Source: a virus
Virus record (IMG/VR): IMGVR_UViG_3300042934_000776
Coordinates: 1 to 63,160 of that record
DNA: 63,160 nucleotides
Strand: one strand, 5' to 3'
This document shows, piece after piece, positions 38,352 to 60,321 of this stretch. Position 1 is the first letter of the stretch. Each line of letters starts with the position of its first letter. Position numbers and translations under genes: made by a program. The notes under the pieces were generated by a model. It saw nothing but the letters and a program-made list of their open reading frames with translations, had not been told where the DNA came from and made no database searches.

Positions 38352-38368
38352 AATTCACCGGGTGAATC
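38352..38368. repeat. Palindrome site 1, AATTCACC-G-GGTGAATC
   Basis: One mismatch (A for G) at the outer left base of the 17-bp consensus GATTCACC-N-GGTGAATC. It lies 28 bases upstream of the -35 of the first spacer-dyad promoter. Confidence 0.85.
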
Positions 38369-38395
38369 GGTCCGGTCGCCACGGCAGAGAGTCAC

Positions 38396-38423
38396 TTGCA
38401 TTACCGGGGCCATCCGGTAGTGT
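38396..38423 (+). promoter_or_regulatory. Promoter with inverted repeat in the spacer (P1)
   Basis: TTGCAT (38396-38401), a 16-base spacer and TAGTGT (38418-38423). The spacer and first two bases of the -10 hold TACCGG-N6-CCGGTA. The same layout recurs at 42050 and 54848 and all three are preceded by CAC. It would drive the 38512 gene and the small-gene block. A dyad between the boxes implies control by a spacer-binding protein. Confidence 0.7.
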
Positions 38424-38475
38424 TGTCTTTGTGGGCGAGCACTGCCCACAACCGAACCGGCGGCACCGGCACAGC

Positions 38476-38492
38476 GATTCACCCGGTGAATC
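38476..38492. repeat. Palindrome site 2, GATTCACC-C-GGTGAATC
   Basis: Perfect consensus, between promoter P1 and the ATG at 38512, 19 bases ahead of the start codon. Confidence 0.9.
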
Positions 38493-38511
38493 GAGACAGG
38501 AACTGAGAACG

Positions 38512-39258
38512 ATGGACACGAAGAGCACAACCGAAGAGGTCACCCACCTCACTGCCGAACTGATCGGCAAGCTGGCCACGGCCTACGGCGACACCGATAA
38601 GGCGCTGACGGATCGGGCCCTGGCTGTGAATGCCGCCCTGGCCTACGGCGTCGACGTCAAGACGATGGCCGCCGATATGGCCGCCGCGAACCGTGCGAAC
38701 CCCGCCATTCCGGCCGTGGTTCCTGCGACTCTCGGCTACGCGCGGTTCGCCATCACCGTGGCGGAGGCCATCGGCACGGACCTCCGCGCGTGGATCTCGC
38801 GGGACCGTAAGGCGGTCGCCGACACGATCCGCGCGGGCAAGCGCGTGGGCCTCAAGGCGGCGGGGACGGCCGTCCGCGACGCGCTGAAGCCGATCGACAA
38901 GTCCAAGCACTTCGAGCGCGAAGAGATCGCGGTCACCGTGGTGACCGATCTCCTCTCGACGATCCTCCCGGAACCCGCCCCGGCGACGCCGCGTCAGAAG
39001 AAGAGCGACGGACCGGACGAGATCGACGGCGAGACCGGCGGCAAGAAGGAGACCGTCAGCGAGACCATGACGGCCGCCGCCGCGCTGGCCACCGTGCGAG
39101 CGCTCACGGCGTGGCTGACGACGGGTTCCGGCACCTGGTCGCCGGACCTCGAGTCCGCCCTGTCGGAGCTTCGGACCGCGGCCACGGCCAGCCGGAAGCG
39201 CGGCCAGGGCGAGACCGCCAAGCTCAAGGGGGCGCGCGTCGAGACTCCCGCCGCGTGA
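38512..39258 (+). CDS. Hypothetical alpha-helical protein
   Basis: A 248-residue soluble protein, mainly alanine-rich helices, with an acidic linker (KKSDGPDEIDGETGGKKE) near 170-190 and a basic C-terminus. It is the first gene behind promoter P1 and a palindrome site. The ATG at 38512 is preceded by GGAACTGAGAACG, a modest ribosome site. No family recognised; a DNA- or protein-binding early protein is plausible. Confidence 0.65.
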   Translation: MDTKSTTEEVTHLTAELIGKLATAYGDTDKALTDRALAVNAALAYGVDVKTMAADMAAANRANPAIPAVVPATLGYARFAITVAEAIGTDLRAWISRDRKAVADTIRAGKRVGLKAAGTAVRDALKPIDKSKHFEREEIAVTVVTDLLSTILPEPAPATPRQKKSDGPDEIDGETGGKKETVSETMTAAAALATVRALTAWLTTGSGTWSPDLESALSELRTAATASRKRGQGETAKLKGARVETPAA

Positions 39259-39330
39259 CACGACCGGAGCGGCCGTCGGGTGAGGTGTCCCCGGCGGCCG
39301 CTCCCACGCCCGGCAGTAGCTGCGGCCCCC

Positions 39331-39347
39331 GATTCACCCGGTGAATC
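39331..39347. repeat. Palindrome site 3, GATTCACC-C-GGTGAATC
   Basis: Perfect consensus in the 184-base gap after the 38512 gene. It is 95 bases upstream of the chosen start of the next gene, the longest site-to-start distance among the intergenic copies downstream of P1. Confidence 0.9.
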
Positions 39348-39442
39348 GTGGGCGACAGGTGCCACCTGGCCCCGCATCGACAACACGTCGATATCTCAAC
39401 GAAGATGGCCGCACATGGTGCGACCGGGAAGGACAGGCCATC

Positions 39443-39673
39443 ATGGCCAGCATGCGGAAACTCCGGCGGAACGCGGAGCACGCGGCAGCCGCCTACCGGG
39501 CTGCAGCCGCCGACGTCATCACGGCGACACTCAACGAACGGACCGCCGGACGCGAACCGTCCGACAGCCCCGACGTGCAGCGACTCAGGCGCCGGTCCGG
39601 CGCGTACCACGCACAGTGGCTCGCCGCAGAGCGCCGCGTCGAAGAGAACCTGTCACGGGAGGTGGCATCGTGA
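39443..39673 (+). CDS. Hypothetical helical protein
   Basis: A 76-residue helical, basic protein (MRKLRRNAEHAAAAYRAAAADVITATLNER...). The start at 39443 follows GAAGGACAGG; the frame is open upstream as far as the palindrome site at 39331, so an earlier GTG (39341) cannot be excluded. Not recognised. Confidence 0.5.
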   Translation: MASMRKLRRNAEHAAAAYRAAAADVITATLNERTAGREPSDSPDVQRLRRRSGAYHAQWLAAERRVEENLSREVAS

Positions 39674-39933
39674 GCGAGCGCCAGACCCGCGGCGACTGGA
39701 TCGCCGCCATCATCACCGCTGCACTCGTGTTCGCAGTGATGCTGTGGATGCTGCACCTGGCCACCGATCACCCTGCGCACCCGCCGGTCGAGATCATCAA
39801 CGAAGATGGCCTGGCACCGTGCCCCACCGAAGACTCGACCGACTGCTACTGGGATGCCGACACGATGGGCAACGGCCACGGCCGCGACGTCATCGACCTC
39901 GGCAGTGACGGGGTTGTGGAGGTGTCGCCGTGA
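39670..39933 (+). CDS. Small single-pass membrane protein
   Basis: An 87-residue protein with a membrane helix at about 10-30 (WIAAIITAALVFAVMLWML) and an acidic soluble tail with two cysteines (PCPTEDSTDC). GTG start in a GTGA overlap. Probably accessory; function unknown. Confidence 0.55.
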   Translation: MSERQTRGDWIAAIITAALVFAVMLWMLHLATDHPAHPPVEIINEDGLAPCPTEDSTDCYWDADTMGNGHGRDVIDLGSDGVVEVSP

Positions 39934-40316
39934 ACGCTGAGCAGATCCTCGACACCCTCGCCAGGCTGCAAGCCGACGTCATCCAGACCGGCTGGGAACG
40001 GGAACGGGAGCAGCGTCGCGCCGCCAGAATGGCAGCGATCACTGCCGCCGACCTGCACCCGTTGAAGGTGGCGCGTGACCTCAACGAAGCTGCGATCGCC
40101 GCCCGCGACAGGATGCTGGACGCGGTCCGGCATCACCGTCTCACGCAGGCTCACAACAGCCTGACGTGCCCCATCTGCGAGGGCCCGAAGTCCCCGAACC
40201 CGGCGGACTACACCTGCCCTGCCTGCCAGGCGCCAGCCGGCCAGCCGTGCACCCAACCGACCAACACGGGACGCCGGCCGGTGCGCTGGCATCACGCCAT
40301 GCGGGGTGCGCTGTGA
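39930..40316 (+). CDS. Zinc-finger-containing protein
   Basis: A 128-residue protein. The first 85 residues are helical. The C-terminal part holds CPICEG, CPACQAPAGQPC and a late WHH, a treble-clef-like cysteine/histidine set common in small actinophage proteins. It may bind nucleic acid. It overlaps both neighbours. Confidence 0.6.
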   Translation: MNAEQILDTLARLQADVIQTGWEREREQRRAARMAAITAADLHPLKVARDLNEAAIAARDRMLDAVRHHRLTQAHNSLTCPICEGPKSPNPADYTCPACQAPAGQPCTQPTNTGRRPVRWHHAMRGAL

Positions 40317-40444
40317 ACCGCGGCCGCATCAACGCGCCAGCCCTGCTGGCCGCGGTCTGCCTCACCGTCGTCGTGCTCGCCATGGCGGCAGCCTGGGTGA
40401 CGCTCGTTGTCGCCGTCGTCCACTCTGTGAACGGCACCCCGTAA
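40313..40444 (+). CDS. Short membrane peptide
   Basis: A 43-residue protein, GTG start in a GTGA overlap. Residues 9-37 form one hydrophobic span (LLAAVCLTVVVLAMAAAWVTL). No further information can be drawn. Confidence 0.5.
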   Translation: MNRGRINAPALLAAVCLTVVVLAMAAAWVTLVVAVVHSVNGTP

Positions 40445-40499
40445 GTAACCAGATCCCCTGGCCCCTTCGGCGCACGCCTCCGGGGCTCTCAACAAACCT

Positions 40500-40516
40500 G
40501 ATTCACCCGGTGAATC
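40500..40516. repeat. Palindrome site 4, GATTCACC-C-GGTGAATC
   Basis: Perfect consensus in the 99-base gap before the gene at 40544, 27 bases ahead of its ATG and just upstream of its GAAGGAGAAAC ribosome site. Confidence 0.9.
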
Positions 40517-40543
40517 GGACCACCACAACGAAGGAGAAACGAG

Positions 40544-40756
40544 ATGAGCGGACGCAAAGCGAAGCAGGCACGACGCCTCGAGAACGAGGGTCAGCCGTAC
40601 TTCAAGGAGATCAAGCGCCCCACCACGGCGTACGTCCCCCGCAAGGAGCAGCAGGAGCGCCGACGCCGCGAGCGTGCCTCCGCGAAGCGTGCCGCGGAGA
40701 CCAGCGCGAAGATGCTCTCCGCGTTCACCCGCGGCCGCGAGAAGGGCCTCAGCTGA
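40544..40756 (+). CDS. Hypothetical highly basic protein
   Basis: A 70-residue protein, about one third Arg/Lys (KEQQERRRRERASAKRAAET), helical and probably nucleic-acid binding. It has a good AAGGAG site. Behind palindrome site 4 it starts a new overlapping gene run. Confidence 0.6.
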   Translation: MSGRKAKQARRLENEGQPYFKEIKRPTTAYVPRKEQQERRRRERASAKRAAETSAKMLSAFTRGREKGLS

Positions 40757-40941
40757 TGGTCACCGTCTCGCCCGTCGCCGCGAAGGCGATCGTCGGCACC
40801 CGTTACCGCGTGCTCGACCTCAACGCCCGGCGCACCATCGCCCACGGCCTCACCCTGGGGCAGGCGCACGACCTCATCAAACAGGGCAAGGCTGCGAACC
40901 AGCAGGCCCGCTTCGACATCAGGACGGAGACCCGATCATGA
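40756..40941 (+). CDS. Hypothetical protein
   Basis: A 61-residue mixed alpha-beta protein with RYRVLDLNARRTIAHGLTLGQAHDLIKQGK. Start in a TGATG overlap. Not recognised. Confidence 0.55.
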   Translation: MVTVSPVAAKAIVGTRYRVLDLNARRTIAHGLTLGQAHDLIKQGKAANQQARFDIRTETRS

Positions 40942-41336
40942 GACAGCATCCCGGCAAGTACGCCGACATCGTCGACGAGTGGCTGCACCAGACCGCCATC
41001 AAGGAAGACGACGGGTTCGGCGACGTCGAAGCGCCCACCGGCTACGTGTTCAAGTTGGACGTCGACCCGGACGCGGAGGGCCACGAGTCCGCGTGGCTCG
41101 AGCGCAAGATCGCCGAGTGGTACGGCCCGTTCTTCCTGGTCATCGAAGACAGCCAGGGCACGATGCTGTTCCCGTACTACGCCACCGCCGAAGAGCGGGA
41201 CCAGGCGGCCCAGGAGCTCAGCGTGATCTACGACACCTGGGTCGACGCCGACGAGGACGAGGGCTGCGAGGGTCACGAGTCGCTCGCCGGCGCCCACATG
41301 GGCGAGTCGATCTACTGCGACGGGTCGTGCCGCTGA
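40938..41336 (+). CDS. Hypothetical acidic protein
   Basis: A 132-residue acidic protein (many Asp and Glu; VDADEDEGCEGHES near the end) with three cysteines in the C-terminal quarter. Strongly acidic small phage proteins can be DNA mimics or host-protein inhibitors, but nothing specific is seen. Confidence 0.55.
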   Translation: MRQHPGKYADIVDEWLHQTAIKEDDGFGDVEAPTGYVFKLDVDPDAEGHESAWLERKIAEWYGPFFLVIEDSQGTMLFPYYATAEERDQAAQELSVIYDTWVDADEDEGCEGHESLAGAHMGESIYCDGSCR

Positions 41337-41740
41337 TGTTCACCTCACGCAAGCAGATCCGCCACGCGCTCGAGGCGTACATCTCGCAGGTCGAGCGCAC
41401 CGGTCAGTCAACGAACCTGGAGCAGCAGCTGTTCGCCGCCCTGCAGGGACTCGTCGCCGACCTGAAGGACCGGATCGGCGACCTGCCGTCCGGCGATTCA
41501 CCGAGTGAATCGGCAGCAGTCCATCCGGTGGCCGACGCAGCGCGCTGCACGCAGGCCGGCTACCACCTGGGCGGCTCACGCCACGTCCGCGCCGTCTGCC
41601 CGACGGTCACCGCCACCATCCCCTCGACAGGGGGCGTGACCCTCGGCGAACTCGCCGAGGACATGAGCGATTGGCGCCGAGTGGGCGTAACCCGCGGCGC
41701 CGTCGAGTACGTCATCAACCAGGTGTGGTGGGAGCAGTGA
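41336..41740 (+). CDS. Hypothetical protein containing palindrome site 5
   Basis: A 134-residue protein. The N-terminal 50 residues are helical; the palindrome encodes GDSPSES in a linker; the C-terminal part has VTLGELAEDMSDWRRVGVTRGAVEYVI. A cysteine pair is present but spaced widely. Not recognised. Confidence 0.55.
   Translation: MFTSRKQIRHALEAYISQVERTGQSTNLEQQLFAALQGLVADLKDRIGDLPSGDSPSESAAVHPVADAARCTQAGYHLGGSRHVRAVCPTVTATIPSTGGVTLGELAEDMSDWRRVGVTRGAVEYVINQVWWEQ
41495..41511. repeat. Palindrome site 5, GATTCACC-G-AGTGAATC
   Basis: One mismatch in the right arm (A for G). It lies within the coding sequence of the 41336 gene, in a linker-like part of the protein. Confidence 0.85.
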
Positions 41741-42045
41741 GCCTCGAGCGCGTGGTCCTCGGTCTGCTCGAGGCGGTCGAGAAGTCCAACGAACAGGTCG
41801 GTCACTATACCGACGTCGACCTGCTCTGCGCCTGCGGCCGCGAGGCAGACCTCGCGGGTGACGAACAGGATGCGACTCGGGTCTGGGACCTGGTCGAGCA
41901 CGCCCTCTTCGATCACACCACGGCTCACGACATCCTGCTCGAACGGCGGATGCGGCTGATCTCATCCAACGAGATGCGCCTGGTCGCCGGCTATGAACCA
42001 GCAACCGAGGCGGAGCAGAAGTGGCGGGAGCGGCAGTCCCTGTAG
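41737..42045 (+). CDS. Hypothetical protein
   Basis: A 102-residue helical protein starting with GTG in a GTGA overlap (LERVVLGLLEAVEKSNEQVGHYTDVDLLCACG...). Two cysteines occur as CAC. It is the last gene before promoter P2. Confidence 0.55.
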   Translation: MSLERVVLGLLEAVEKSNEQVGHYTDVDLLCACGREADLAGDEQDATRVWDLVEHALFDHTTAHDILLERRMRLISSNEMRLVAGYEPATEAEQKWRERQSL

Positions 42046-42049
42046 CCAC

Positions 42050-42077
42050 TTGCATTACCGGGGATATCCGGTAAGCT
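42050..42077 (+). promoter_or_regulatory. Promoter with inverted repeat in the spacer (P2)
   Basis: TTGCAT (42050-42055), 16-base spacer, TAAGCT (42072-42077), with TACCGG-N6-CCGGTA across the spacer. It is almost identical to P1 from CACTTGC to CCGGTA. It sits in the only gap before the large 42152 gene and is followed by palindrome site 6. Confidence 0.75.
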
Positions 42078-42118
42078 AGACGAAGTCGGGCGGGTCGAGA
42101 AACGCCTGATCAACGAGC

Positions 42119-42135
42119 GATTCACCGAGTGAATC
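42119..42135. repeat. Palindrome site 6, GATTCACC-G-AGTGAATC
   Basis: Same variant as site 5. It lies downstream of P2, 16 bases ahead of the ATG at 42152 and directly before GGGAAGGAGAA. Confidence 0.88.
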
Positions 42136-42151
42136 GGGAAGGAGAACGGTC

Positions 42152-43717
42152 ATGGGCAGCAACTACCACGACCACGACGCCATCGCCATGCGGTGGGTCG
42201 ACCGGGCCTACCACGGCCAGCAGTTCGCCAACGCCCGCAAGGGCGCCAACCTGCACGACGAAGGCGACTCGATCTACAGCTACGGCCACCACTTCGAGGT
42301 CGCCCGCATCCTGCGGGACCACAAGCGCCGCCCCGTCGGGTGGCTGCTCAACGGCAACACGTACAGCAACACCACGAACAAGCACCAGTTCGCGGTGCGC
42401 AACGCCATCGCCCGCAACGGGCGCGGCCTGCCGAGCGTGACCATCCCGCACGACGCGCTCGCCGCCGCTGGCATCGAGCTCGAGTCGGTGCAGATCGTCA
42501 ACGTCCAGCCGGACTGGTGGACCGAGCGTGAAGAGCGCCGCTTCAGCCGACCCGAATCCTGGGTCACCCGCGAGACGCGCACCGAGATCGGCGGCTGGCA
42601 GAACACCCTGACCGGCGAGTACCGCAGCCGCGTCACCTACTGGGGACCGGATGCCGTCAGTCAGCCGAAGGTCGAGTGCGACCACGTGCTGCCCGACCCG
42701 CCGGGACCATGGAAGCCAGGCTTCAACTGGTATCGCGACGCCGCGGCCGACCATGCCCGGGAGATCCACGAGCGCGCGCGCCACGGCGTGTGGGAGGAGG
42801 TGCCGTCGATCACTCGCAGCACCGGACGGGTGCGCATCTTCTCGTCCTCGAACGTCGAGTGGGACATCGAGGACGACCCGGAGTCGCCGATCGGCGTGGC
42901 CTACACACGCATCGTGCGGCGCCACTGGCTCGGTGCGTCGCTGATCAAGGCGGCCACGATTCACCAGGTGAATCGGAAGCACGACGCCTGCAACGGCACC
43001 GGCGTGGGCGAGGAGCGCTGGGTCTACAACGGCATGAGCGGCGAGGGTCCGCTCACCGAGGACGAGATGGCCCGCCACCTGCGCCACGAGCAGTTCGTCA
43101 TGGAGCGCAACGGCGGCATCCGCCAGCCGGTGCAGCACCACGTCGAGACGTACAGGCGTGAGGACTTCTGCTTCGGATGCAGCGGTCGCGGCACGATCCG
43201 GGTGCCCCGGCGCCGGTGGGCGTACTACCTCAGCGGGTTCGATCTCAACGAGACCCGGCCGAGCTACTTCTTCTGCGAGCTCCCGCCGAAGAGCGCCCCG
43301 ACCACGGTGGCGGAGGCGTACGAGGCGTTGAAGCCGGCATCCGTCAAGCTGGCGGAGGCGATGGGCCGCGAGGTGAAGCGTCAGGGTGACATCTTCGCCA
43401 TCCCGGTGCCGTCGGTCGACACGGCGCAGCTGAAGCGCGACGGCGAGTACCGCCGGTACGCATCCGAGATGGTCACCGAGACCATCTGGAACCGACGAGG
43501 TCGACCGCGCGAGGTGCGCATGCGTCGGTCCGAGCACCTGGCGCACGTCCTGGACACCAACCACGAGTGCACCGAGGTCGTCACCATCAACGGACAGACG
43601 TACGGTCGGGGCACCATGGTGCACTCGCCCGGCGACCGCCTGCCCGACCACAAGCGCCTGCAGCTGGGGAAGACCTGGCACCTGTTGGTGAAGAACACCG
43701 TCCCGATTGGAGCCTGA
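42152..43717 (+). CDS. Large conserved-looking protein of unknown function
   Basis: A 521-residue protein, by far the largest in the accessory block and the only one with its own promoter (P2). An N-terminal domain (about 1-120) is rich in His, Arg and Asn (HDHDAIAMRWVDRAYHG). DACNGTG and CFGCSGRG near 280-350 resemble paired zinc-knuckle motifs of DnaJ type. The C-terminal region has VTINGQTYGRGTMVHSPGDRLP. Palindrome site 7 is embedded, encoding IHQVNR. I cannot name a function. The start has AAGGAG. Confidence 0.75.
   Translation: MGSNYHDHDAIAMRWVDRAYHGQQFANARKGANLHDEGDSIYSYGHHFEVARILRDHKRRPVGWLLNGNTYSNTTNKHQFAVRNAIARNGRGLPSVTIPHDALAAAGIELESVQIVNVQPDWWTEREERRFSRPESWVTRETRTEIGGWQNTLTGEYRSRVTYWGPDAVSQPKVECDHVLPDPPGPWKPGFNWYRDAAADHAREIHERARHGVWEEVPSITRSTGRVRIFSSSNVEWDIEDDPESPIGVAYTRIVRRHWLGASLIKAATIHQVNRKHDACNGTGVGEERWVYNGMSGEGPLTEDEMARHLRHEQFVMERNGGIRQPVQHHVETYRREDFCFGCSGRGTIRVPRRRWAYYLSGFDLNETRPSYFFCELPPKSAPTTVAEAYEALKPASVKLAEAMGREVKRQGDIFAIPVPSVDTAQLKRDGEYRRYASEMVTETIWNRRGRPREVRMRRSEHLAHVLDTNHECTEVVTINGQTYGRGTMVHSPGDRLPDHKRLQLGKTWHLLVKNTVPIGA
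42958..42974. repeat. Palindrome site 7, GATTCACC-A-GGTGAATC
   Basis: Perfect arms, inside the 521-residue gene about 800 bases after its start. The codons read IHQVNR here, whereas the same site in other frames codes DSPGES. Confidence 0.88.
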
Positions 43718-43718
43718 C

Positions 43719-44060
43719 ATGCCCCTCTTTCACGATGCCCACCCGAATGCCGAGCACCCGGACCGGCCCGACCACGAGGACTTCCGGCTGCTCGCTGAAC
43801 TCATGCAGGATCTCGACCGGCAGGCCGAGTTCGGGGTGCCGGTCGAGGAGCTCGTGCCCGCCGACCAGAATTCGGTGATCTACGCGGCGGACCAACGGCT
43901 GCTGCGCGCGCTCGGCCCGGGTTGGCTGACTCTGACTCGGGCGATGAAGATGACCCTGCTCGCCGTGTACCTGGACGCCTTCACCCTGGGGACGTCCTTC
44001 GCCAACCGTCGGCATGCCGACAACGAGACCGGCACTGCCGGAGAAGGGAGCTCATCGTGA
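43719..44060 (+). CDS. Hypothetical protein
   Basis: A 113-residue protein. The first 60 residues are acidic and helical (HEDFRLLAELMQDLDRQ); WLTLTRAMKMTLLAVYLDAFTLG suggests an amphipathic or membrane-leaning helix. Start at the ATG one base after the previous stop. Not recognised. Confidence 0.55.
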   Translation: MPLFHDAHPNAEHPDRPDHEDFRLLAELMQDLDRQAEFGVPVEELVPADQNSVIYAADQRLLRALGPGWLTLTRAMKMTLLAVYLDAFTLGTSFANRRHADNETGTAGEGSSS

Positions 44061-44227
44061 GCACCACCACCCTCGAGCGCGCCGAGGTCACCGCACCTCC
44101 CGTCGCGCTCACCAAAGCGCAGGAGGATGCCCTGATCGGGCTCGCTGCGTCCACCGAGAAGCCTGCGCGCGTGCGCAGCCTGCGCCATGAGGTGCGGGCC
44201 TGGTCTCTCGGCGGCAACGTGGACTGA
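44057..44227 (+). CDS. Hypothetical small protein
   Basis: A 56-residue protein, GTG start in a GTGA overlap after GGAG. Helical with a basic second half (ALTKAQEDALIGLAAST...RSLRHEVRAW). Function unknown. Confidence 0.5.
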   Translation: MSTTTLERAEVTAPPVALTKAQEDALIGLAASTEKPARVRSLRHEVRAWSLGGNVD

Positions 44228-44289
44228 TGTCCGCGGGCCGCTGCCGGCATCTTCCCCCGCTGCCGGCGGCGGTTCGGGTATCTCAGCCC

Positions 44290-44306
44290 GATTCACCAGG
44301 TGAATC
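44290..44306. repeat. Palindrome site 8, GATTCACC-A-GGTGAATC
   Basis: Perfect arms, in the 122-base gap between 44227 and 44350, 43 bases ahead of the next ATG. Confidence 0.9.
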
Positions 44307-44349
44307 TCAACGCATATGGCATGCCCGGCATGCCTGGAAAGGAATGGAC

Positions 44350-44628
44350 ATGCCTGAGCGCAACAAGCAGGGCTACCTGCGCGCCGAGCAGCTGCGCGCC
44401 GGTGAGATCGAGCAGTACGCCGTCGCCCGCGGCATCCGCTACGTCGAGATCAGCCTCGGCTGGACGCCCACGTCGCTCGATGACGACCAGCAGGGGTACT
44501 TCTGGGTGCACCTCGTGATCCGCAAGGGCACCCGCTACGGCCGCCTGGTCGAGGATCGCACCCTGACGTACGACGACATCGACGAGGCGCGCGAGCGCTT
44601 CCGCAATCTGATGAAAGCCCACCCGTGA
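44350..44628 (+). CDS. Hypothetical protein
   Basis: A 92-residue protein, mixed alpha-beta (YFWVHLVIRKGTRYGRLVEDRTLTYDDIDEARERFRNLM). A GGAAAGGAATGG stretch gives the ribosome site. Its stop codon TGA lies in the first bases of palindrome site 9. Not recognised. Confidence 0.55.
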   Translation: MPERNKQGYLRAEQLRAGEIEQYAVARGIRYVEISLGWTPTSLDDDQQGYFWVHLVIRKGTRYGRLVEDRTLTYDDIDEARERFRNLMKAHP

Positions 44629-44643
44629 TTCACCTGGTGAATC
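44627..44643. repeat. Palindrome site 9, GATTCACC-T-GGTGAATC
   Basis: Perfect arms and the only copy with T at the centre. It begins within the stop codon of the previous gene and ends 16 bases before the next ATG. Confidence 0.9.
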
Positions 44644-44659
44644 GAGAAAGGACACGACC

Positions 44660-45639: not shown

Positions 45640-45641
45640 CC

Positions 45642-46832: not shown

Positions 46833-47193
46833 GCGGGATGTCGAGACGCGCGTCCAGGCTGCGACCGAGTGGGCACTCGACACCTACGGGGTGAAGCCCT
46901 TCAGCATCGTCGGTGGCCAGCGGCTCACCAACATCGTGCAGTCAGCAGTGCGTCACGCCCTGTCCGATTCACCAGGTGAATTGCAGTACCACGATGGCGA
47001 TTGGGCATTCGACATCGACGAGGAGTCCGGCGAGGAGGCGGTGTGGATCGACCTGCAGCTGTTCGACCCGGACGACCCGGACCCCAGCGTGCGGCATGTC
47101 AATGCCGTGCTCACACTGTCAGACGTGGAACTCCGCGGCCTCGTCGAGGCTGGGCAGGAGATCCTCGCGGAATCAAGGAGGCGGTTCGCATGA
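46825..47193 (+). CDS. Hypothetical protein containing palindrome site 10
   Basis: A 122-residue acidic protein from the ATG at 46825, overlapping the previous gene by eight bases. The palindrome encodes SDSPGEL at the junction between a helical N-terminus and a beta-rich DIDEESGEEAVWIDLQLFD region. A longer upstream frame is rejected because it lies on top of the preceding gene. Confidence 0.55.
   Translation: MAERDVETRVQAATEWALDTYGVKPFSIVGGQRLTNIVQSAVRHALSDSPGELQYHDGDWAFDIDEESGEEAVWIDLQLFDPDDPDPSVRHVNAVLTLSDVELRGLVEAGQEILAESRRRFA
46966..46982. repeat. Palindrome site 10, GATTCACC-A-GGTGAATT
   Basis: One mismatch at the last base (T for C). Located inside the 46825 gene. Confidence 0.82.
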
Positions 47194-49218: not shown

Positions 49219-49586
49219 CCCTCGACCCTTCCGGCGTGCGCACTCGCCTGCCGGTCAGCGAGTGGCCGGAGAAGCACGGCCCGCACCTGCGCGGCACCTG
49301 GTACGCCCGGCGTCTGAAGCGTGGCGAGTACACTCGGCGGCCGCACTACTTCGTGTGGCCCGAGTCGCGCTCGCTGTGCGAGAAGTCGACGCGCCGCCCC
49401 GACGACCTGGTGCTCAACCCCGACACCGGCCGGACGATGGAGGTCGACCCGCTGATCAAGGACTTCCAGACACGCACGCTGTGCGGTATCTGCCTGATGC
49501 TGCTCGAGCCAGGCCCAACCACCGCTGACATCGTGAACGCATACGTCCCGGTGTGGGTGTTGCGCGATTCACCGGGTGAATCGTGA
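49215..49586 (+). CDS. Hypothetical protein ending in palindrome site 11
   Basis: A 123-residue protein with basic N-terminal half (TWYARRLKRGEYTRRPHYF) and three cysteines (SLCEK, LCGIC) that may bind metal. The last codons DSPGES come from the palindrome. Start overlaps the preceding stop. Not recognised. Confidence 0.55.
   Translation: MTLDPSGVRTRLPVSEWPEKHGPHLRGTWYARRLKRGEYTRRPHYFVWPESRSLCEKSTRRPDDLVLNPDTGRTMEVDPLIKDFQTRTLCGICLMLLEPGPTTADIVNAYVPVWVLRDSPGES
49566..49582. repeat. Palindrome site 11, GATTCACC-G-GGTGAATC
   Basis: Perfect arms. It covers the last codons of the 49215 gene and abuts the GTG start of the next gene with no spacing, so protein binding here would block that start or its ribosome site. 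Confidence 0.88.
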
Positions 49587-53610: not shown

Positions 53611-53623
53611 TGGAAGGAGCACC

Positions 53624-53947
53624 ATGAACACCCCGTACCCGGATCGCTACATGCAGCAGGTGCTGCGCGAGGCGGATGAAAGACGTCGCGAGGCCGAGCA
53701 GCTTCAGGCTGACTTCGATGAGCGCGTGCGCGTCGCGCTCGACCGCTACACCCACGACCCCGTCTTCCACGCCGAGGTCTACCAGGTCGCCCGGGTCATC
53801 GACAACGATGACGACTTCGCCCGGCTGTTCGACGAGGAGGGGCCTGACTCGGCGTGGGAGATGGCGCTCGGGCTCGCACTGAAGGCTGTCGTCGCAGTGC
53901 ATGAGCAGCGCCCGGGCGGCCTCCTGCACATAGAGGGAATGCAATGA
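53624..53947 (+). CDS. Hypothetical helical protein
   Basis: A 107-residue helical protein with a coiled-coil-like N-terminal half (YMQQVLREADERRREAEQLQADFDERVR) and acidic middle. AAGGAG precedes the start. It follows the helicase gene by 13 bases and may assist replication. Not recognised. Confidence 0.58.
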   Translation: MNTPYPDRYMQQVLREADERRREAEQLQADFDERVRVALDRYTHDPVFHAEVYQVARVIDNDDDFARLFDEEGPDSAWEMALGLALKAVVAVHEQRPGGLLHIEGMQ

Positions 53948-54129
53948 CCTGGCCAACCGCGGAGCGACAGACGCTCGACTGCCAGGCGTGCGGCAACGTC
54001 GTCAAGGTGCTCACCCCTGCAGAGGTCCAGATGGTTGCCGCCAACCCGTACAACTTCATCGTCTACTGCAGAGACGCCATCTGCCAGGAGGCGGCGAGAG
54101 CCGATGCCCGACGAGAGGGGCTGCTGTGA
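53944..54129 (+). CDS. Small zinc-ribbon-like protein
   Basis: A 61-residue protein with CQACG and, 29 residues on, C-x5-C (YCRDAIC), a possible zinc site. Starts in a four-base overlap. Not recognised. Confidence 0.55.
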   Translation: MTWPTAERQTLDCQACGNVVKVLTPAEVQMVAANPYNFIVYCRDAICQEAARADARREGLL

Positions 54130-54266
54130 ACGACGACGAACTGCCCGAAGACCTGGGAACCCCGGCGCCTGACCGCTGGTGGCTGCGGCCGATGTTCCTG
54201 ATCGCCACCGCCTGCACACTCGGCTGCGCCGGTGTGCTGGTCCACGGGATCGGGGCGATCTCATGA
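54126..54266 (+). CDS. Short membrane protein
   Basis: A 46-residue protein, GTG start in a GTGA overlap, with one hydrophobic segment (MFLIATACTLGCAGVLVHGIG). Nothing further is visible. Confidence 0.5.
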   Translation: MNDDELPEDLGTPAPDRWWLRPMFLIATACTLGCAGVLVHGIGAIS

Positions 54267-54592
54267 GGGTCTACACGCTGCGCGAGGCAGCCGTCGAGCT
54301 CGACCGGATCATCGACGAGCGGACCGACTTCGACAGCGAACGCTGGCTGCCGGGCCTGGCTGGCATCGAGATGACGATGAGCCTGGTGGAGATCGTCGAG
54401 GCCGAGCCGCCGGCGCCGACACGCGAGTACCGGCAGGGCGGCCGCCAGGTCGGGAAGACGGCGGAGATGGCAAGGCTGATCGCGGCCATGACCGGGCTGC
54501 ATTTCGAGACGGTGATGGACCTGCTCGCCGCGGGCTGGTCGTACACCGAGGAGGAGGGGAAGGCACCGAGATGGACACGCGACTCACACTGA
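54263..54592 (+). CDS. Hypothetical protein
   Basis: A 109-residue helical protein starting in an ATGA overlap. It has TLREAAVELDRIID at the N-terminus and LIAAMTGLHFETVMDLLAAG later, a pattern of small helical DNA- or protein-binding domains. Not recognised. Confidence 0.55.
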   Translation: MRVYTLREAAVELDRIIDERTDFDSERWLPGLAGIEMTMSLVEIVEAEPPAPTREYRQGGRQVGKTAEMARLIAAMTGLHFETVMDLLAAGWSYTEEEGKAPRWTRDSH

Positions 54593-54861
54593 AGGTGGGG
54601 TTGCTGTACCGCATCCACGAAGGGTGGGTGTCGACGGAGGTCATAGCCGCCCGGCTGGGCGTGCCGATCGGCCAGGTCGTGCGGGTGCGCGACTGGCTGA
54701 ACGCACGCGGCTACCTCGAGCGCGCGATCGACGCGCCGGTCAGTCGATGGGTAGCGACGCTCGAGTTCGAGACGCTGTGGAACGAGCTTCTGCCGGGACG
54801 GGCGTGCCCGTTGTCGTTCTGCTCGACAGCCCGGGCGCGTGGGTCACTTGCGCAAGGTTAG
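54571..54861 (+). CDS. Winged-helix-like protein
   Basis: A 96-residue protein. Residues 7-55 (LKVGLLYRIHEGWVSTEVIAARLGVPIGQVVRVRDWLNARGYLER) fit a MarR/GntR-like winged helix. It overlaps the previous gene by 22 bases and its TAG stop is the first arm of the dyad in promoter P3, so it is well placed to regulate the next unit. That regulation is inferred. Confidence 0.6.
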   Translation: MDTRLTLKVGLLYRIHEGWVSTEVIAARLGVPIGQVVRVRDWLNARGYLERAIDAPVSRWVATLEFETLWNELLPGRACPLSFCSTARARGSLAQG

Positions 54862-54875
54862 TGGACCACTAGACT
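54848..54875 (+). promoter_or_regulatory. Promoter with inverted repeat in the spacer (P3)
   Basis: TTGCGC (54848-54853), 16-base spacer, TAGACT (54870-54875). The dyad TAGTGG-A-CCACTA (54859-54871) spans the spacer and enters the -10, as in P1 and P2, and CAC precedes the -35. It would drive the SSB-recombination unit. A TATAAC hexamer at 54880-54885 is an alternative -10. Confidence 0.65.
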
Positions 54876-54902
54876 GTGTATAACGAAATGGAAGGGGGCC
54901 GC

Positions 54903-55157
54903 ATGGCCGACAGGCGATACGACCGCAACGTGGGATACCTCGAACTCCCGCTCATCCCCGACGACAAGTTCATCGCCGGGGCGATCGTCATCCTCAGCGA
55001 TGAGGAGGGCGAGCTCAGCACCCAGTTCGTGGCCGAGAGCCTCGACATGGTGCCAGATGTGAAGCAGCAGGAGGAGATCACCGCGACCGTCACCGAGGCG
55101 TGGCGCGAGGCGAATCTCCACCCCGTCAGCTGGGATTGGGGACGTCATGCAGATTGA
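54903..55157 (+). CDS. Hypothetical protein
   Basis: An 84-residue acidic protein (DDKFIAGAIVILSDEEGELSTQFVAESLDMVPDV). The start is the ATG at 54903 with GGAAGGGGG upstream. First gene of the P3 unit. Not recognised. Confidence 0.58.
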   Translation: MADRRYDRNVGYLELPLIPDDKFIAGAIVILSDEEGELSTQFVAESLDMVPDVKQQEEITATVTEAWREANLHPVSWDWGRHAD

Positions 55158-55335
55158 GATCACCATCGACACGGATGGTGCCCGCACCACCGTCATGCAC
55201 GAGTTCGGCCTCGAAGTCCACAACGTGCAGCAGGCAGACGGACAGGTCGCAGCCCGCTTTGAGACGCCCGACCTCAACACCGTCGCCACCAGCGTCGCCC
55301 GCCACGCGGCGGACGTCCACCGGCTCACCCTCTGA
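55147..55335 (+). CDS. Hypothetical protein
   Basis: A 62-residue protein with beta strands then helix (IEITIDTDGARTTVMHEFG...TVATSVARHAADVHRL), overlapping the previous gene by 11 bases. Not recognised. Confidence 0.52.
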   Translation: MQIEITIDTDGARTTVMHEFGLEVHNVQQADGQVAARFETPDLNTVATSVARHAADVHRLTL

Positions 55336-55367
55336 GCCACAACCCTCCCGGAAGGAGAACCACTGCA

Positions 55368-55544
55368 ATGAGCCTGTTTGAAGCCCAGCGGACCGAGGAA
55401 GAGGTCGACGAACTCGCGAACCTCGCGTTCGAGATCAAGGACGAGATCGGCAGTCGCTACCCCGGCATGTCCTATGAGGACGGCATCACCAACACCATCG
55501 ACTGGCTTCGCGGCCACTCGGACAACCCGCTCGAGGAGAACTGA
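55368..55544 (+). CDS. Hypothetical acidic helical protein
   Basis: A 58-residue acidic helical protein (EAQRTEEEVDELANLAFEIKDEIG) just before the SSB gene, with GAAGGAGAA upstream and a TGATG overlap with SSB. It may be an SSB partner by position only. Confidence 0.58.
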   Translation: MSLFEAQRTEEEVDELANLAFEIKDEIGSRYPGMSYEDGITNTIDWLRGHSDNPLEEN

Positions 55545-56227
55545 TGTCCTACGGAATGCCCACCCTCGTCGTCGGGAACCTGACCGCCGACCCCGAACTG
55601 AAGTTCTCGCAGAACGGCAAGCCGTACGTCCGGCTCACCATCGCGAACACCCCCCGGGTGAAGGACCGTGACACGAACCAGTGGTCCGACGGTCCCGCCT
55701 CGTTCATCGGAGTCACCCTCTACGACGACTACGCCACCAATGCCGCGGCATCCGTGACCAAGGGCACCCGCGTCGTCGCGTACGGCGAGCTCGAGAAGCG
55801 GGTCTGGCAGGACTCGAACGGCCTCGACCGCGAGTCGCTGCAGCTGGAGAACGTCACCACGTTCGCCGTCGACCTCCGGTTCGCACAGGCCAACGTGCAG
55901 CGCGCCGCGAAGGGCGGCCAGCAGCAGGCGCCCGCGCAGCAGCAGGGCGGCCAGCAGTACGGCCCGCCCCAGGGTGGCCAGTACGGTCCCCCGCAGGGCC
56001 AGCAGTACGCCCCCCCGCAGGGTCCGCCGCAGCAGTATGGGCCGCCACAAGGGGCTCCGTCGGCGCAGGGGCAGTGGCCGTCGCAGGGCGGCCCTGGCCC
56101 GCAGCAGTTCGCGCCGCCGCAGCAGCCACAGCAGGGCTACCCGGCACCTGCCGGCCAGCCGCAGCAGCCGCCTGCACAGCAGGGTGCCGCGCCCGGCTAC
56201 CAGTACCCCGACGAGACCCCGTTCTGA
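55544..56227 (+). CDS. ssb: Single-stranded DNA-binding protein
   Basis: A 227-residue protein. Residues 1-110 form an OB fold of the SSB type (VVGNLTADPELKFSQNGKPYVRLTIANTPR; GTRVVAYGELEKRVWQD). Residues 115-220 are a low-complexity Gln/Pro/Gly/Tyr linker. It ends in an acidic tip, DETPF, like the DDIPF tip that recruits partner proteins. It protects single strands in replication and recombination, beside the Rad52-like and RuvC-like genes. Confidence 0.93.
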   Translation: MSYGMPTLVVGNLTADPELKFSQNGKPYVRLTIANTPRVKDRDTNQWSDGPASFIGVTLYDDYATNAAASVTKGTRVVAYGELEKRVWQDSNGLDRESLQLENVTTFAVDLRFAQANVQRAAKGGQQQAPAQQQGGQQYGPPQGGQYGPPQGQQYAPPQGPPQQYGPPQGAPSAQGQWPSQGGPGPQQFAPPQQPQQGYPAPAGQPQQPPAQQGAAPGYQYPDETPF

Positions 56228-56237
56228 GGAGCAGACC

Positions 56238-56462
56238 ATGGACCACGAGAGCATCGCGAGCCTGAAGACGCGCATTGCGACCGAGCCGGAGGGTAACGGC
56301 TTCGTTCACTCGTCCCTGATGGAGGGTGAGGACCCGACCGCCCTGGTTCGGTCCCTCCTTGCCGCCGGTGGCACCACCACCGCTGTCACTGCCGGTGGCG
56401 GCCCCGACGGGGTCATGGTGCACTGGCGGCCGCGCACCCCCGAGGAGATGGTGGAGTCATGA
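56238..56462 (+). CDS. Hypothetical protein
   Basis: A 74-residue protein (ESIASLKTRIATEPEGNGFVHSSLMEGEDPTALVRSLLAAGG...). Follows SSB by ten bases. Not recognised. Confidence 0.55.
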   Translation: MDHESIASLKTRIATEPEGNGFVHSSLMEGEDPTALVRSLLAAGGTTTAVTAGGGPDGVMVHWRPRTPEEMVES

Positions 56463-56653
56463 CCATCGAGGAGTTGATCGAGTTCCTGGAGAGGCGCCTG
56501 AAGGCGGGCAAGATCCACGGTCTCGGCTCGGTGAAGATCCGCGACTTCCGCGTCTCTGACGAGGCGATGGAAGCAGGGTCGAGTGGCTACGCCGACCTCG
56601 AAGAGGTGCTGGTCGTCGGCGACGACGTCTACCTCCTGCCGTCGGAGGACTGA
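56459..56653 (+). CDS. Hypothetical protein
   Basis: A 64-residue protein (IEELIEFLERRLKAGKIHGLGSVKIRDFRV...YADLEEVLVVGDDVYLLPSED) with a helix then beta strands, coupled to both neighbours by overlaps. Not recognised. Confidence 0.55.
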   Translation: MTIEELIEFLERRLKAGKIHGLGSVKIRDFRVSDEAMEAGSSGYADLEEVLVVGDDVYLLPSED

Positions 56654-57219
56654 TGGACTCCCCGATCGCCATGGGGATCGACGTCAGCCTGACCCGTACG
56701 GCCGTCGCCTTCGTCGGAACCAACGACGAAGGCGACGGCCCGGTGGTCGACACCTACTCGATGGGTCGCAGAGGGTCTCGCGACGAGTCCCTGATGCAGC
56801 GCCGCGAGCGGATCACCACCCTGCGCGAGCTGGTGATCCGCACGCTCACCGAGAACATGGAGCGGCCGCGTGTCGCCATGATCGAGGACGTCCCGTTCGG
56901 CACGCCCGGTGGCTCCACCACGGACCGGGCCGCCCTCTGGTGGTTCATCGTCGAGGGCCTCCACCAGGAGGGCATCCCGACCGTGGCGGTGAACGTCTCG
57001 AAGCTGAAGATCTACGCCACAGGCAGGGGCAACAAGCACGAGAAGGACGAGGTCACCGTCGCCCTGATCCGCCGCTATGTCGACGCGCCGATCCAGAACA
57101 ACGACGAGGCCGACGCCACGGGGCTCGCCATGATGGGCGCTCGCCTGCTGGGTGAGCCGTACGAGAAGTCACTGCCGCAGACGCACCTGCGGGCGATGGA
57201 AGGACTGGCGCTGCCGTGA
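56653..57219 (+). CDS. RuvC-like Holliday junction resolvase
   Basis: A 188-residue protein of the RuvC/RNase-H fold. Acidic residues fit the catalytic set: D10 in MGIDVS, E78 in AMIEDVP, and D151/D154 in NNDEADATGLA, with K131 nearby. It would cut four-way junctions or branched DNA before packaging. The start is in a TGATG overlap. Confidence 0.85.
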   Translation: MDSPIAMGIDVSLTRTAVAFVGTNDEGDGPVVDTYSMGRRGSRDESLMQRRERITTLRELVIRTLTENMERPRVAMIEDVPFGTPGGSTTDRAALWWFIVEGLHQEGIPTVAVNVSKLKIYATGRGNKHEKDEVTVALIRRYVDAPIQNNDEADATGLAMMGARLLGEPYEKSLPQTHLRAMEGLALP

Positions 57220-57752
57220 TCCTGACGCCTGAGCTCGAGCAGCAGATCATCGCGATCATCGAGATGCACCCTCGAGAATCGCTGGTGCTGCCCGACTGGG
57301 CGTATGGCACGGATGGGCGGGTGGTGGTGCTGGTCGACGGGATCCCGATCGACCTGCACCGCCACCTGCACAACAAGCTGATCCGCCCACTCGGTTACCA
57401 CGAGAGGATGTGGCAGCGCGGCGAGAACGGCAACGTCAACCCGCACCTGTTCGACGTCGTCGCCGGCACGAAGTCGGCGCGCACCGAATGCGCCAAGGGT
57501 CACGCCTACGAGGGGAACGAGGCCCCTCCGAACAGCCGTGGCTACCGATGTCTGACCTGCTACCGAGACTCGTATCGGAAGCCGGGCGTGATCCCGAACG
57601 GCGAGAAGACGCGCTGCCCCCAGGATCACGAGTACACCCCGGAGAACACCTACATCGGCCGTGACGGGAAGCGTCGCTGCCTGACCTGCAAGAGAGACCG
57701 CAACCGCCGCTACATGCGGCGGCGGCGGTCACCCCGGAAGGAGAACCCATGA
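57216..57752 (+). CDS. Protein with two zinc-knuckle repeats (HNH-associated type)
   Basis: A 178-residue protein. The N-terminal half has DLHRHLHNKLIRPLGYHERM. The C-terminal half has two repeats, CAKGHAYEGNEAPPNSRGYRCLTC and CPQDHEYTPENTYIGRDGKRRCLTC (C-x4-H ... C-x2-C), and a very basic end. Such repeats are common on phage HNH endonucleases and DNA binders. No full HNH motif is clear. GTG start in a GTGA overlap. Confidence 0.65.
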   Translation: MILTPELEQQIIAIIEMHPRESLVLPDWAYGTDGRVVVLVDGIPIDLHRHLHNKLIRPLGYHERMWQRGENGNVNPHLFDVVAGTKSARTECAKGHAYEGNEAPPNSRGYRCLTCYRDSYRKPGVIPNGEKTRCPQDHEYTPENTYIGRDGKRRCLTCKRDRNRRYMRRRRSPRKENP

Positions 57753-58849
57753 ACGACCAGACCCCCTGGATCCGCCAGCCGCGCCAGCCCGCACCTCACA
57801 TCAAGTACGCCCACTCGCTCGGCCGCGGCATGCTCACGTTCGAGCAGATCACCGAGCTCGTGAAGGCGATCAACCAGCTGTACGTCGCCCAGAAGAACAA
57901 GATGTCGTACCTGTCCCAGCACCAGGCGCGCGCCGAGATGAACCGCATCTTCGGCTACGGAAACTGGGACTCGAAGGTCGCCTCGATGCGCTGCGACTAT
58001 GAGGAGCGCATCGGTGACAACACCGACCCTCGCTGGCCGAAGGACTTCCGCACGAAGCAGCCGAAGGTCTCCGGCTCTGGCGCCTACTGGGTCGTCGGCT
58101 ACGAGGGCTCTGTCCATGTGGCGATCCGCGACCTGTGGGGGATGCCGGTCGCCGAGTACCTCGAGTTCCACTTCGAGGAGTCGGCGCCGCAGCCCAACCG
58201 TGGCGAGGCCCGCGCCCTCGCGCTCACCTCGGTCGAGTCGTACGCACTGCGCCGGTCGCTGATCAACCTCGGCGACCGCTTCGGGCTCGGTCTCTACAAC
58301 GGCGGATCGGTCGCCCCGCATGGGCAGTACACGATCCAGCTGGAGCCGGGCATCCTGTTCGACTGGAAGCCTGTCGACGCTCAGGGTCAGCAGCCGGCCA
58401 CAGCCCCTGTGCCCCGGCAGCCCTCCCACGAGACGATCGCCGCGGAGCCCGCCGTGCCCGAGGGCTGGGCGGAGCAGGCTGCGGTGGGCGCACTCGAGGC
58501 CCCGGAGCCGACACCCGGCACGGCGGATGCCGCGGTCGCGCAGATGGGCCTGCAGTCGCCGCCGGTGACGCGGCCGCCGGTGGCGCAGCGGTTCCCGCAG
58601 GCCCGCGAGCAGGTTCAGCAGATGAACCAGGAGGCGCGCGCACAGGCCGGGGGTGGCTACCCGGCCCCGCCGCAGCAGCAGGGTGGGCCTGCACCGAGCA
58701 TCGCCCCCGGCGCGACTGACGCGCTGCGCGCCCGGATGCAGGGCGCCTTCAAGGTGGATGCGGAGGACGAGCGCGAGCGGTATGAGCGCGAGAACGACTA
58801 CGCGAATGAGCAGGCGATGCAGCAGCACCGTGGGGGCGTGGTCGAGTAA
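57749..58849 (+). CDS. Rad52-like single-strand annealing protein
   Basis: A 366-residue protein. The N-terminal half matches Rad52/Rad22-type recombinases: YLSQHQARAEMNRIFGYGNWD, YWVVGYEGSVHVAIRDLWG and EARALALTSVESYALRRSLINLGDRFGLGLYNGG. The C-terminal half is Pro/Gln/Ala-rich. It would anneal complementary strands together with the adjacent SSB and nuclease. AAGGAG precedes the start. Confidence 0.88.
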   Translation: MNDQTPWIRQPRQPAPHIKYAHSLGRGMLTFEQITELVKAINQLYVAQKNKMSYLSQHQARAEMNRIFGYGNWDSKVASMRCDYEERIGDNTDPRWPKDFRTKQPKVSGSGAYWVVGYEGSVHVAIRDLWGMPVAEYLEFHFEESAPQPNRGEARALALTSVESYALRRSLINLGDRFGLGLYNGGSVAPHGQYTIQLEPGILFDWKPVDAQGQQPATAPVPRQPSHETIAAEPAVPEGWAEQAAVGALEAPEPTPGTADAAVAQMGLQSPPVTRPPVAQRFPQAREQVQQMNQEARAQAGGGYPAPPQQQGGPAPSIAPGATDALRARMQGAFKVDAEDERERYERENDYANEQAMQQHRGGVVE

Positions 58850-60321
58850 TGGCCGAGCTCATCCGGGACAAGGCGCTCGAGGACGCCCTGCTCGCCGCGG
58901 TGATCGCCGACCAGAACGAGCGGCCGCGGACCAAGCAGATGCTCATCGGCCCGTCGGAGATCGGCGGATGCCGCGAGCTCGTGCGCGCGAAGATTTTCGA
59001 GGACCGCTCCACCTTCCTGCCCGACACGCACTGGCACACCGCCGCGCACGTCGGCACGGTGATGGGCGAGGATCTCGAGCGGATCTTCGGCGAGCGTCTC
59101 GGTGCGGCCACGCAGCAGCGCGTCACCATCGAGCTCGAGCGGCTCGGCCTCAGCGTGTCCGGCGCGATCGACCTGATCTTCATCCGCAACCAGGTCGTCT
59201 GCGACCTGAAGGGCACCGGCGCGTTCGGGTCTGTGCAGTACGAGGGCGGCGTGAAGCTCGACTACTACATCCAGATCTCGCTCTACGTGTGGGGCCTGGT
59301 CAAGGCTGGCATCCTGCAGCCTGGTGCCGAGGGTCGGATCGTCTACTACGACCGGGTCGGTGGCGAGCAGACGTTCATCGCCGTCGTGGTCACCTGGGAA
59401 GCGATCCTCAACTACGTCGACCTGGCGCAGCGCCGCCTGCAGGAGGTGCTGAACGCACAGGCCGGGATCGAGGCGGGCCAGCTGAGCATGGCCCACCACC
59501 TCCGCGACCACGTGCCGTCGTTCTGCTTCTCCGAGAAGGTGCAGTGCCCGCGCCGCATGCACTGCTGGGGCGGGTCTGACTGGGCGCCTCTCCAGGTGCA
59601 CGACGACGCCGACCTGCAGCGCGCGACCGTCGAGTACATCGCCGGTCGCAAGCTGGAGAACCGCGGCAAGGCGATGAAGGAGCAGGCGCGTGGCCTGCTC
59701 AAGGGCGTCGAGGGTCACGTCGTCAACGGCGAGGAGATGGGCGGCCTGGTCGGCTGGAAGAGCGGCCGCATCTCCGTGGTGGAGATCGAGGCACTGCCTG
59801 CCGTGCAGGATCTGGTGGACGAGGTCTCGACCGAGTGGGCGAGGGGCGAGACGCGCGAGCCGTTCAAGCCCTCGGACCTGGCCGACCCGGCAAAGGTCGC
59901 GGAGCTCAATGCGCGCGGCGTGGTGAACGTCGCCGACGAGTACCCGCCCGACCCGGAGGCAGAGCAGATCTTCATCGAGGAGGTCACCGGTACTCACATC
60001 AGTTCGATGTCGATCGTCCCGAAGGGCGAGGGCACCGGCTGGATCGAGCCAGTAGAGGCCGATTCACCCGGTGAATCACCCCCGGACGACATGCCGTTCC
60101 AGGGTGGCGGGCTGGTCACTGCGGACGAAGTCCAGGCGTGGCCGACGCCGCCCGAGCAGGTGCTCGAGCAGCACGGCCAGGATCTGACGGCCGATCAGGT
60201 CGCGTACCTCGAGCGCAAGGCGGAGGAGGCGCGACAAGCGCCGACGACCAGCGCCGAGCGTCTCTCGCAGCTGCAGAAGGACGTCGCCGCTGATCGGAAG
60301 CGTCGTGCCGGCAAGGCGTGA
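58849..60321 (+). CDS. Cas4/RecB-like exonuclease with probable Fe-S cluster
   Basis: A 490-residue protein. The PD-(D/E)XK core shows D108 in SGAIDLIF, D119 and K121 in VCDLKGTG and QISLYVWGL. Four cysteines, C41 and C226, C233, C239, are placed like the iron-sulfur cysteines of Cas4/AddB nucleases. Such enzymes resect DNA ends for the neighbouring annealing protein. The last 150 residues are acidic and Pro-rich and contain palindrome site 12, encoding ADSPGES. Confidence 0.82.
   Translation: MAELIRDKALEDALLAAVIADQNERPRTKQMLIGPSEIGGCRELVRAKIFEDRSTFLPDTHWHTAAHVGTVMGEDLERIFGERLGAATQQRVTIELERLGLSVSGAIDLIFIRNQVVCDLKGTGAFGSVQYEGGVKLDYYIQISLYVWGLVKAGILQPGAEGRIVYYDRVGGEQTFIAVVVTWEAILNYVDLAQRRLQEVLNAQAGIEAGQLSMAHHLRDHVPSFCFSEKVQCPRRMHCWGGSDWAPLQVHDDADLQRATVEYIAGRKLENRGKAMKEQARGLLKGVEGHVVNGEEMGGLVGWKSGRISVVEIEALPAVQDLVDEVSTEWARGETREPFKPSDLADPAKVAELNARGVVNVADEYPPDPEAEQIFIEEVTGTHISSMSIVPKGEGTGWIEPVEADSPGESPPDDMPFQGGGLVTADEVQAWPTPPEQVLEQHGQDLTADQVAYLERKAEEARQAPTTSAERLSQLQKDVAADRKRRAGKA
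60061..60077. repeat. Palindrome site 12, GATTCACC-C-GGTGAATC
   Basis: Perfect consensus, 10.5 kb from the nearest other copy, inside the disordered C-terminal part of the Cas4-like gene. Confidence 0.9.

Follow-up and report, generated by a model that had tools for sequence, protein, structure and literature searches.

The early block of a 63,160-bp viral DNA (IMG/VR record IMGVR_UViG_3300042934_000776; "the window" hereafter is this whole record) carries twelve copies of a 17-bp palindrome, GATTCACC-N-GGTGAATC, and a further palindrome occupies the -35/-10 spacer of each of its two predicted early promoters. Both kinds of element recur in 27 genomes, and in both the sequence changes between lineages. 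The best explanation for the pattern as a whole may be a two-level control of early transcription, by promoter operators and by an elongation-blocking array; we give it about an even chance of being right.

A sharply bounded array in the early block

We searched the whole record with the query GATTCACCNGGTGAATC, allowing up to 3 mismatches. The search returned exactly 12 sites, every one with 0 or 1 mismatch (8 of the 12 copies were perfect and the other 4 had one mismatch), and the centre base was C, G, A or T in different copies. Allowing 4 mismatches added just two places (7263 and 58612), so the motif set is sharply bounded and has no tail of decayed copies. Dinucleotide shuffles of the window held 0.18 matches on average and 2 at most, and a chance origin of the set is excluded. 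All 12 sites lie within positions 38352 to 60077, in the plus-strand early block (Table 1), and they are concentrated next to the early promoters; no copy was found in the structural half at up to 3 mismatches. A start preceded by a Shine-Dalgarno (SD) sequence lies 16 to 43 bp downstream of five copies (38476, 40500, 42119, 44290, and 44627), and a GTG directly adjoins two (39331 and 49566).

A first-pass annotation of the window had listed the same twelve coordinates, arms that depart by no more than one base, a free centre, and the same five copies ahead of start codons; all of these were exact on rescan. Its intragenic copies in different reading frames and its empty structural half also held. 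It had noted a single copy abutting a GTG; the abutment is real, but two copies show it.

Four spellings across 27 genomes

Judged by sequence, the window is a relative of the Microbacterium cluster EG phages. Its early block matches theirs in patches, at about 71 to 80% nucleotide identity, and the gene order primase, SSB, RuvC, recombinase, exonuclease is common to both. To survey spellings, we counted perfect gapped palindromes, without bias, in EG-phage right arms, in the window, and in an IMG/VR contig, G001 (IMGVR_UViG_3300049575_000109; 63,791 bp). The 27 genomes comprise 25 cluster EG phages and these two contigs. One palindrome family was overrepresented in each genome, with 11 to 15 sites apiece. 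The class A spelling, GATCAACC-NN, accounts for 23 of the 27 genomes, and two further phages that we checked (BirdInFrench and BabyDotz) also have it. Fizzles has 13 sites spelled GATCTACC-NN, and the single-base-spacer spelling GATTCACC-N occurs in the window (12 sites) and G001 (15 sites). Phinky has GATTYMCC-NN, made of the half-sites GATTTCCC and GATTCACC, often one of each per site (accession no. MT639641.1, positions 53774 to 61436); these mixed sites may represent a switch from one spelling to another that is still under way. Over the classes, the half-site keeps its outer GAT and its inner CC, while the middle positions and the spacer differ. Single exact copies of the window motif in five short IMG/VR contigs are at about chance level by our own estimate. 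The scan of relatives that the first-pass annotation had proposed yielded arrays in 27 of 27 genomes, spelled differently by class.

We defined orthologous sites by grouping sites on the protein encoded directly downstream. One such group reads GATCAACCCGGGTTGATT agacaggagaacaccatgcg in Nike, GATCTACCCGGGTAGATC agacaaggagaacaccatgcg in Fizzles, and GATTTCCCTGGGGAAATC agacaggagagcaccatgcg in Phinky; the flanks are near identical and the site is respelled (in contracted form, GATCAACCCGGGTTGATTagacaggagaacaccatgcg / GATCTACC...agacaaggagaacaccatgcg / GATTTCCC...agacaggagagcaccatgcg). Concerted respelling of this type, with the flanks still recognizable, recurs at several orthologous places, and the site ahead of the small MGKAS.../MSGRKAK... 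gene (40500 in the window) is present in every class. Squash, Fizzles, and Phinky have one isolation strain, M. foliorum NRRL B-24224, and carry three spellings. A host-encoded binder is therefore unlikely, and we rejected it. The simplest reading, strongly suggested by these comparisons, is a phage-encoded, sequence-specific binder that has changed in specificity; it is probably dimeric. The first-pass annotation had likewise proposed that a dimeric, phage-specific protein binds DNA at the sites; this view gains support from the near-invariant arms, the concerted respelling, the intragenic placement in several frames, and the absence from the late half.

Placement of the sites in relatives

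The 105 sites in nine annotated relatives include 60 that precede an annotated start by 12 to 32 bp, versus 5.6 expected. Among gaps of at least 15 bp in Fizzles and Hyperion, a site is present in 15 of 17 in the proximal early block and in none of the distal ones; in Fransoyer, just 4 of 11 proximal gaps have one. Where the early block ends on its 3' side, the Fransoyer group, Phinky, and G001 each have one site next to or within a hairpin that resembles a terminator. When class A phages were scanned over the whole genome (six genomes in full), the matches listed included no structural-half sites except for terminal-repeat copies. Three G001 sites lie outside its early block, at 2764 (in a terminator), 6403, and 22410. 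The first of these (2764 to 2780) lies between two gene blocks that converge, in the loop region of a long, GC-rich hairpin resembling a terminator. From the positions of sites within the operon and away from promoters, we infer that the array would suit control of elongation better than control of initiation.

The ~520-aa early gene carries an intragenic site in four lineages, in four nonhomologous alignment columns and three reading frames; as the alignment has it, these sites were placed independently. That the palindromes instead work at the RNA level, forming small hairpins immediately upstream of the ribosome-binding site that tune mRNA stability, processing, or translation, seems to us quite improbable. 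Many sites do lie directly upstream of an SD sequence, and they fold to -5.7 to -6.9 kcal/mol. The RNA of a window site makes a 7-bp stem with a 3-nucleotide loop (-5.7 kcal/mol), so the earlier argument that the loop of such a hairpin would be too short was wrong. Changes at the outermost position are also often symmetric, with pairing retained. However, the inner arms are nearly unchanging across the 133 different site variants, pairing is broken by 20 single changes as against 9 that give G-U, and paired double changes occur solely at the outermost position, with none inside the arms. The mixed half-sites that form several of the Phinky sites cannot pair (-0.1 kcal/mol), which disfavors a hairpin, and about 40% of sites lack a start association, some of them deep within genes.

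Palindromes in the early promoter spacers

We predicted two sigma-70-like early promoters in each of the 27 genomes, both with a 16-bp spacer. P1 is ahead of the first early gene, and P2 is about 3 to 5 kb further in. Exact TACCGG-N6-CCGGTA occurs in the window at P1 and P2 only. Its general form, TACnnn-N6-nnnGTA, with shorter arms in some copies, is found twice per genome in 27 of 27. The nnn triplet is CGG in the window and G001, GG plus A/T in the Fransoyer group, CGA/CCG in the OneinaGillian group, ACC in the Squash group, GTC in Fizzles, and TCA in Phinky. Of the 84 outer positions examined in seven lineage representatives, 78 are paired (0 of 20,000 shuffles did as well), and the arms at P1 and P2 agree at 3 to 4 of 4 within a phage versus 1.6 of 4 between lineages. 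The spacer palindromes are apparently a second, lineage-specific family of operators.

TABLE 1 Positions of the array sites, predicted promoters, and genes discussed, in window coordinates (IR, inverted repeat)
Feature	Position	Strand	Remark
IR site 1, AATTCACC-G-GGTGAATC	38352..38368	.	Upstream of P1; orthologous sites in G001, Fransoyer and OneinaGillian lineages
Predicted early promoter P1, TTGCAT-N16-TAGTGT	38396..38423	+	
Putative promoter operator O1, TACCGG-N6-CCGGTA	38402..38419	.	P1 -35/-10 spacer
IR site 2	38476..38492	.	19 bp ahead of ATG of first early gene
First early gene, 248 aa	38512..39258	+	Homologues across cluster
IR site 3	39331..39347	.	Adjoins GTG
IR site 4	40500..40516	.	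27 bp ahead of start of small basic protein gene; ortholog in all four spelling classes
IR site 5	41495..41511	.	One inner mismatch
Predicted early promoter P2, TTGCAT-N16-TAAGCT	42050..42077	+	
Putative promoter operator O2, TACCGG-N6-CCGGTA	42056..42073	.	P2 -35/-10 spacer
IR site 6	42119..42135	.	One inner mismatch; 16 bp ahead of ATG of ~520-aa gene
~520-aa early gene	42152..43717	+	Intragenic IR site in four lineages, nonhomologous places
IR site 7	42958..42974	.	Intragenic
IR site 8	44290..44306	.	From window scan; SD-preceded start downstream
IR site 9	44627..44643	.	16 bp ahead of an ATG
IR site 10	46966..46982	.	One outer mismatch
IR site 11	49566..49582	.	Adjoins GTG of candidate regulator gene; G001 arranged alike
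Candidate array binder, GRPxG protein, 91 aa	49583..49858	+	Basic GRPxG N-arm; predicted winged-helix-like fold
Candidate promoter-operator binder, tandem ribbon-helix-helix (RHH)-like, 93 aa	49848..50129	+	RHH orthologue annotation in Fransoyer and Lonelysoil
IR site 12	60061..60077	.	Within Cas4-family exonuclease gene; G001 has site in same gene

Candidate binders

Two overlapping genes, for a GRPxG protein and a tandem RHH-like protein, have homologues in 27 of 27 genomes, and an array site adjoins the start codon of the GRPxG gene in the window and in G001. The GRPxG protein had no Pfam, PHROG, or PDB match by sequence or fold. Its homologues occur in 43 phage records, all Microbacterium; IMG/VR has four loci only (G001 and three already known phages), and no deep homologues were found in 84,980 genomes. 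The RHH-like protein was modeled with a predicted local distance difference test (pLDDT) score of 90.8; PDB searches with it gave nothing significant, with weak RHH-like matches to VapB, AvtR, and single-chain Arc.

At residue 24 (window numbering), the GRPxG protein has Q in the window, G001, and Phinky; in Fizzles the residue is Y, and class A genomes (23 of 23) have H. Residues 27, 51, and 62 are linked to the spacer. In lineages that have one array spelling but different promoter palindromes, the GRPxG protein is conserved and the RHH strand residues differ. The RHH proteins of the window and G001 are 41% identical, yet they have a common strand 1 (RKRFW) and the same promoter palindrome. 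The pairing of GRPxG with the array and of RHH with the promoters is a correlational hypothesis drawn from these alignments. We think it rather unlikely that the array is bound by the RHH protein and not by GRPxG. RHH proteins typically bind short palindromes, the gene is just downstream of the GRPxG gene, and few shared proteins have diverged as much from one spelling class to another as its product (rank 1 of 43 for Nike-Fizzles and 2 of 55 for Nike-Phinky), but the predicted DNA-facing strand residues of the RHH protein differ in three lineages with identical array spelling and follow the promoter palindrome instead.

Two helix-turn-helix (HTH) genes at 37253 to 37910 are HTH_17-like and HTH_36/replication-initiator-like. 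The first-pass annotation had named these (as 37313 and 37548) and a third gene (as 54571) as possible binders, and none is general: the first two (~37253 and 37548) lack homologues in the early arms of the examined relatives, and the third (54232 to 54861) is present in some lineages only.

Proposed mechanism and alternatives

We propose that the array sites, distributed over the early operon, are bound by a sequence-specific protein that the phage encodes and that is probably a dimer; it would control early transcription after initiation, as a roadblock or by a stoperator-like shut-off. A second regulator would act at both early promoters through the lineage-specific spacer palindromes. GRPxG may be the protein on the array and the tandem RHH protein the one on the promoter operators, and the outcome would be repression of the early genes. 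"Operator or stoperator" is our guess at the best functional reading of the array.

Several points weigh against this proposal. The start association may partly reflect the location of noncoding space. G001 sites 6403 and 22410 fall in its structural half. Neither a repressor nor an integrase has been identified in cluster EG phages (PMC7302621), so a stoperator would have no obvious role in lysogeny. The GRPxG structure model is of moderate confidence (pLDDT of 72.6) and matches nothing in the PDB. The main basis for assigning GRPxG to the array is residue 24, which was picked out in a post hoc scan and is at the end of helix 1, outside the predicted recognition helix, and a Cas4-like exonuclease also has class-tracking columns in that scan. 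Overall GRPxG divergence is ordinary at class changes, whereas RHH is among the most diverged proteins.

A role of the sites in replication, segregation, DNA organization, or packaging (partition-like or nucleoid-type) is an unlikely alternative to transcriptional control. It would account for sites within genes, beside terminators, and away from promoters, and for the similar repeats of Cluster O, a role in regulating transcription initiation was considered unlikely by the authors (PMC4351075). The strong start association and the concentration next to early promoters speak against it, and a nearly empty late half is not expected if the sites organize the whole genome. The partition-type system suggested in the first-pass annotation found no support; the ten window proteins that were scanned gave no ParB-like match. 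It is very improbable that the sites serve middle genes as phage-specific promoters or as activator sites, even with the fixed distance of 15 to 22 bp to many starts: there is too little space between palindrome and SD for a -10 element and a start site, no sigma-like -10 follows the sites, the two clear promoters lie elsewhere, and the intragenic and terminator-linked sites do not fit.

Relation to known repeats

An 18-bp start-associated inverted repeat, GATCAACC-NN-GGTTGATC, was published for cluster EG in 2020, with its function unknown (PMC7302621). Three cluster EG phages were described with 8 to 10 copies of GATCAACCNNGGTTGATC, mostly 14 to 22 bp ahead of start codons (PMC7302621; PMC9224216), and these repeats were already likened to the 17-bp repeats of Cluster O (PMC7302621; PMC9224216; PMC4351075). 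The window array is thus, by its sequence, of a published kind and a variant with other arms and a 1-bp spacer. The two sets agree in phage group, early region, start association, and similar copy number. They have the half-site GAT..ACC in common, and orthologous sites were identified, with the first-gene, 40500-type, and ~520-aa-gene sites shared. The published repeats are close upstream of starts in the nonstructural arm; five window sites are 16 to 43 bp ahead of starts, and 12 of 12 are in the early half. The window sites do not follow the published consensus GATCAACCNNGGTTGATC: their arms are GATTCACC instead of GATCAACC, and their spacer is 1 bp instead of 2 bp. What our comparison adds is the four spellings over 27 genomes, the concerted respelling at orthologous places, and the promoter-spacer palindromes. 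The published work has one consensus, no promoter palindrome, and no Fizzles or Phinky spellings; the words "promoter" and "operator" are absent from the main text of PMC7302621.

Cluster O mycobacteriophage repeats (TGTTCGG-NNN-CCGAACA) are also 17-bp multicopy dyads, intergenic and intragenic, for which dimer binding was proposed, but they are unrelated in sequence, with 7-bp arms, a 3-bp centre, and 34 copies genome-wide in Corndog (PMC4351075). Cluster A stoperators (L5 and TipsytheTRex) resemble the array in their many short intergenic sites plus promoter sites, and in a site motif and repressor that vary together among relatives (PMC9283540; PMC6550527). They differ in being asymmetric 13-mers, monomer bound and oriented with transcription, whereas the window sites are dyads; unlike in our model, one repressor serves both site types, and the phages are temperate (PMC9283540; PMC6550527). 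A Pfam scan of ten window proteins gave no L5-type repressor annotation; no direct L5 homology search was made. The SAS/ESAS of Clusters K and EF and the 18-bp motifs of cluster EC are likewise repeated, start-associated actinobacteriophage sequences (PMC7302621). These sequences are asymmetric, and SAS overlap the ribosome-binding site (PMC7302621); the window palindrome is 5' of the SD.

Apart from these elements, the window has a gene of the PHROG "DNA topoisomerase" family at 61149 to 62078, 77 to 80% identical to the copies in G001 and Fizzles. It is also present in Curtobacterium phage Nonagon (59%) and had no match in the other EG phages compared; on this distribution, the gene is likely mobile between phages.

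Significance

For several lytic actinobacteriophages, multicopy start-associated palindromes are on record with neither a binder nor a function attached to them. Here the site sequence varies among close relatives on one host strain while positions are kept, which provides natural swap experiments, and two named neighboring genes are offered as testable candidate binders. It is possible, if doubtful, that this lytic phage group closes its early operon with two proteins and two motif sets, a small regulator at the promoter-spacer palindromes and a different one on the array along the operon, and that these sets have been respelled independently, several times, over whole genomes among close relatives. 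The system is relevant to the question of how specificity can change jointly in a regulator and in its dispersed sites, a dozen or more in number.

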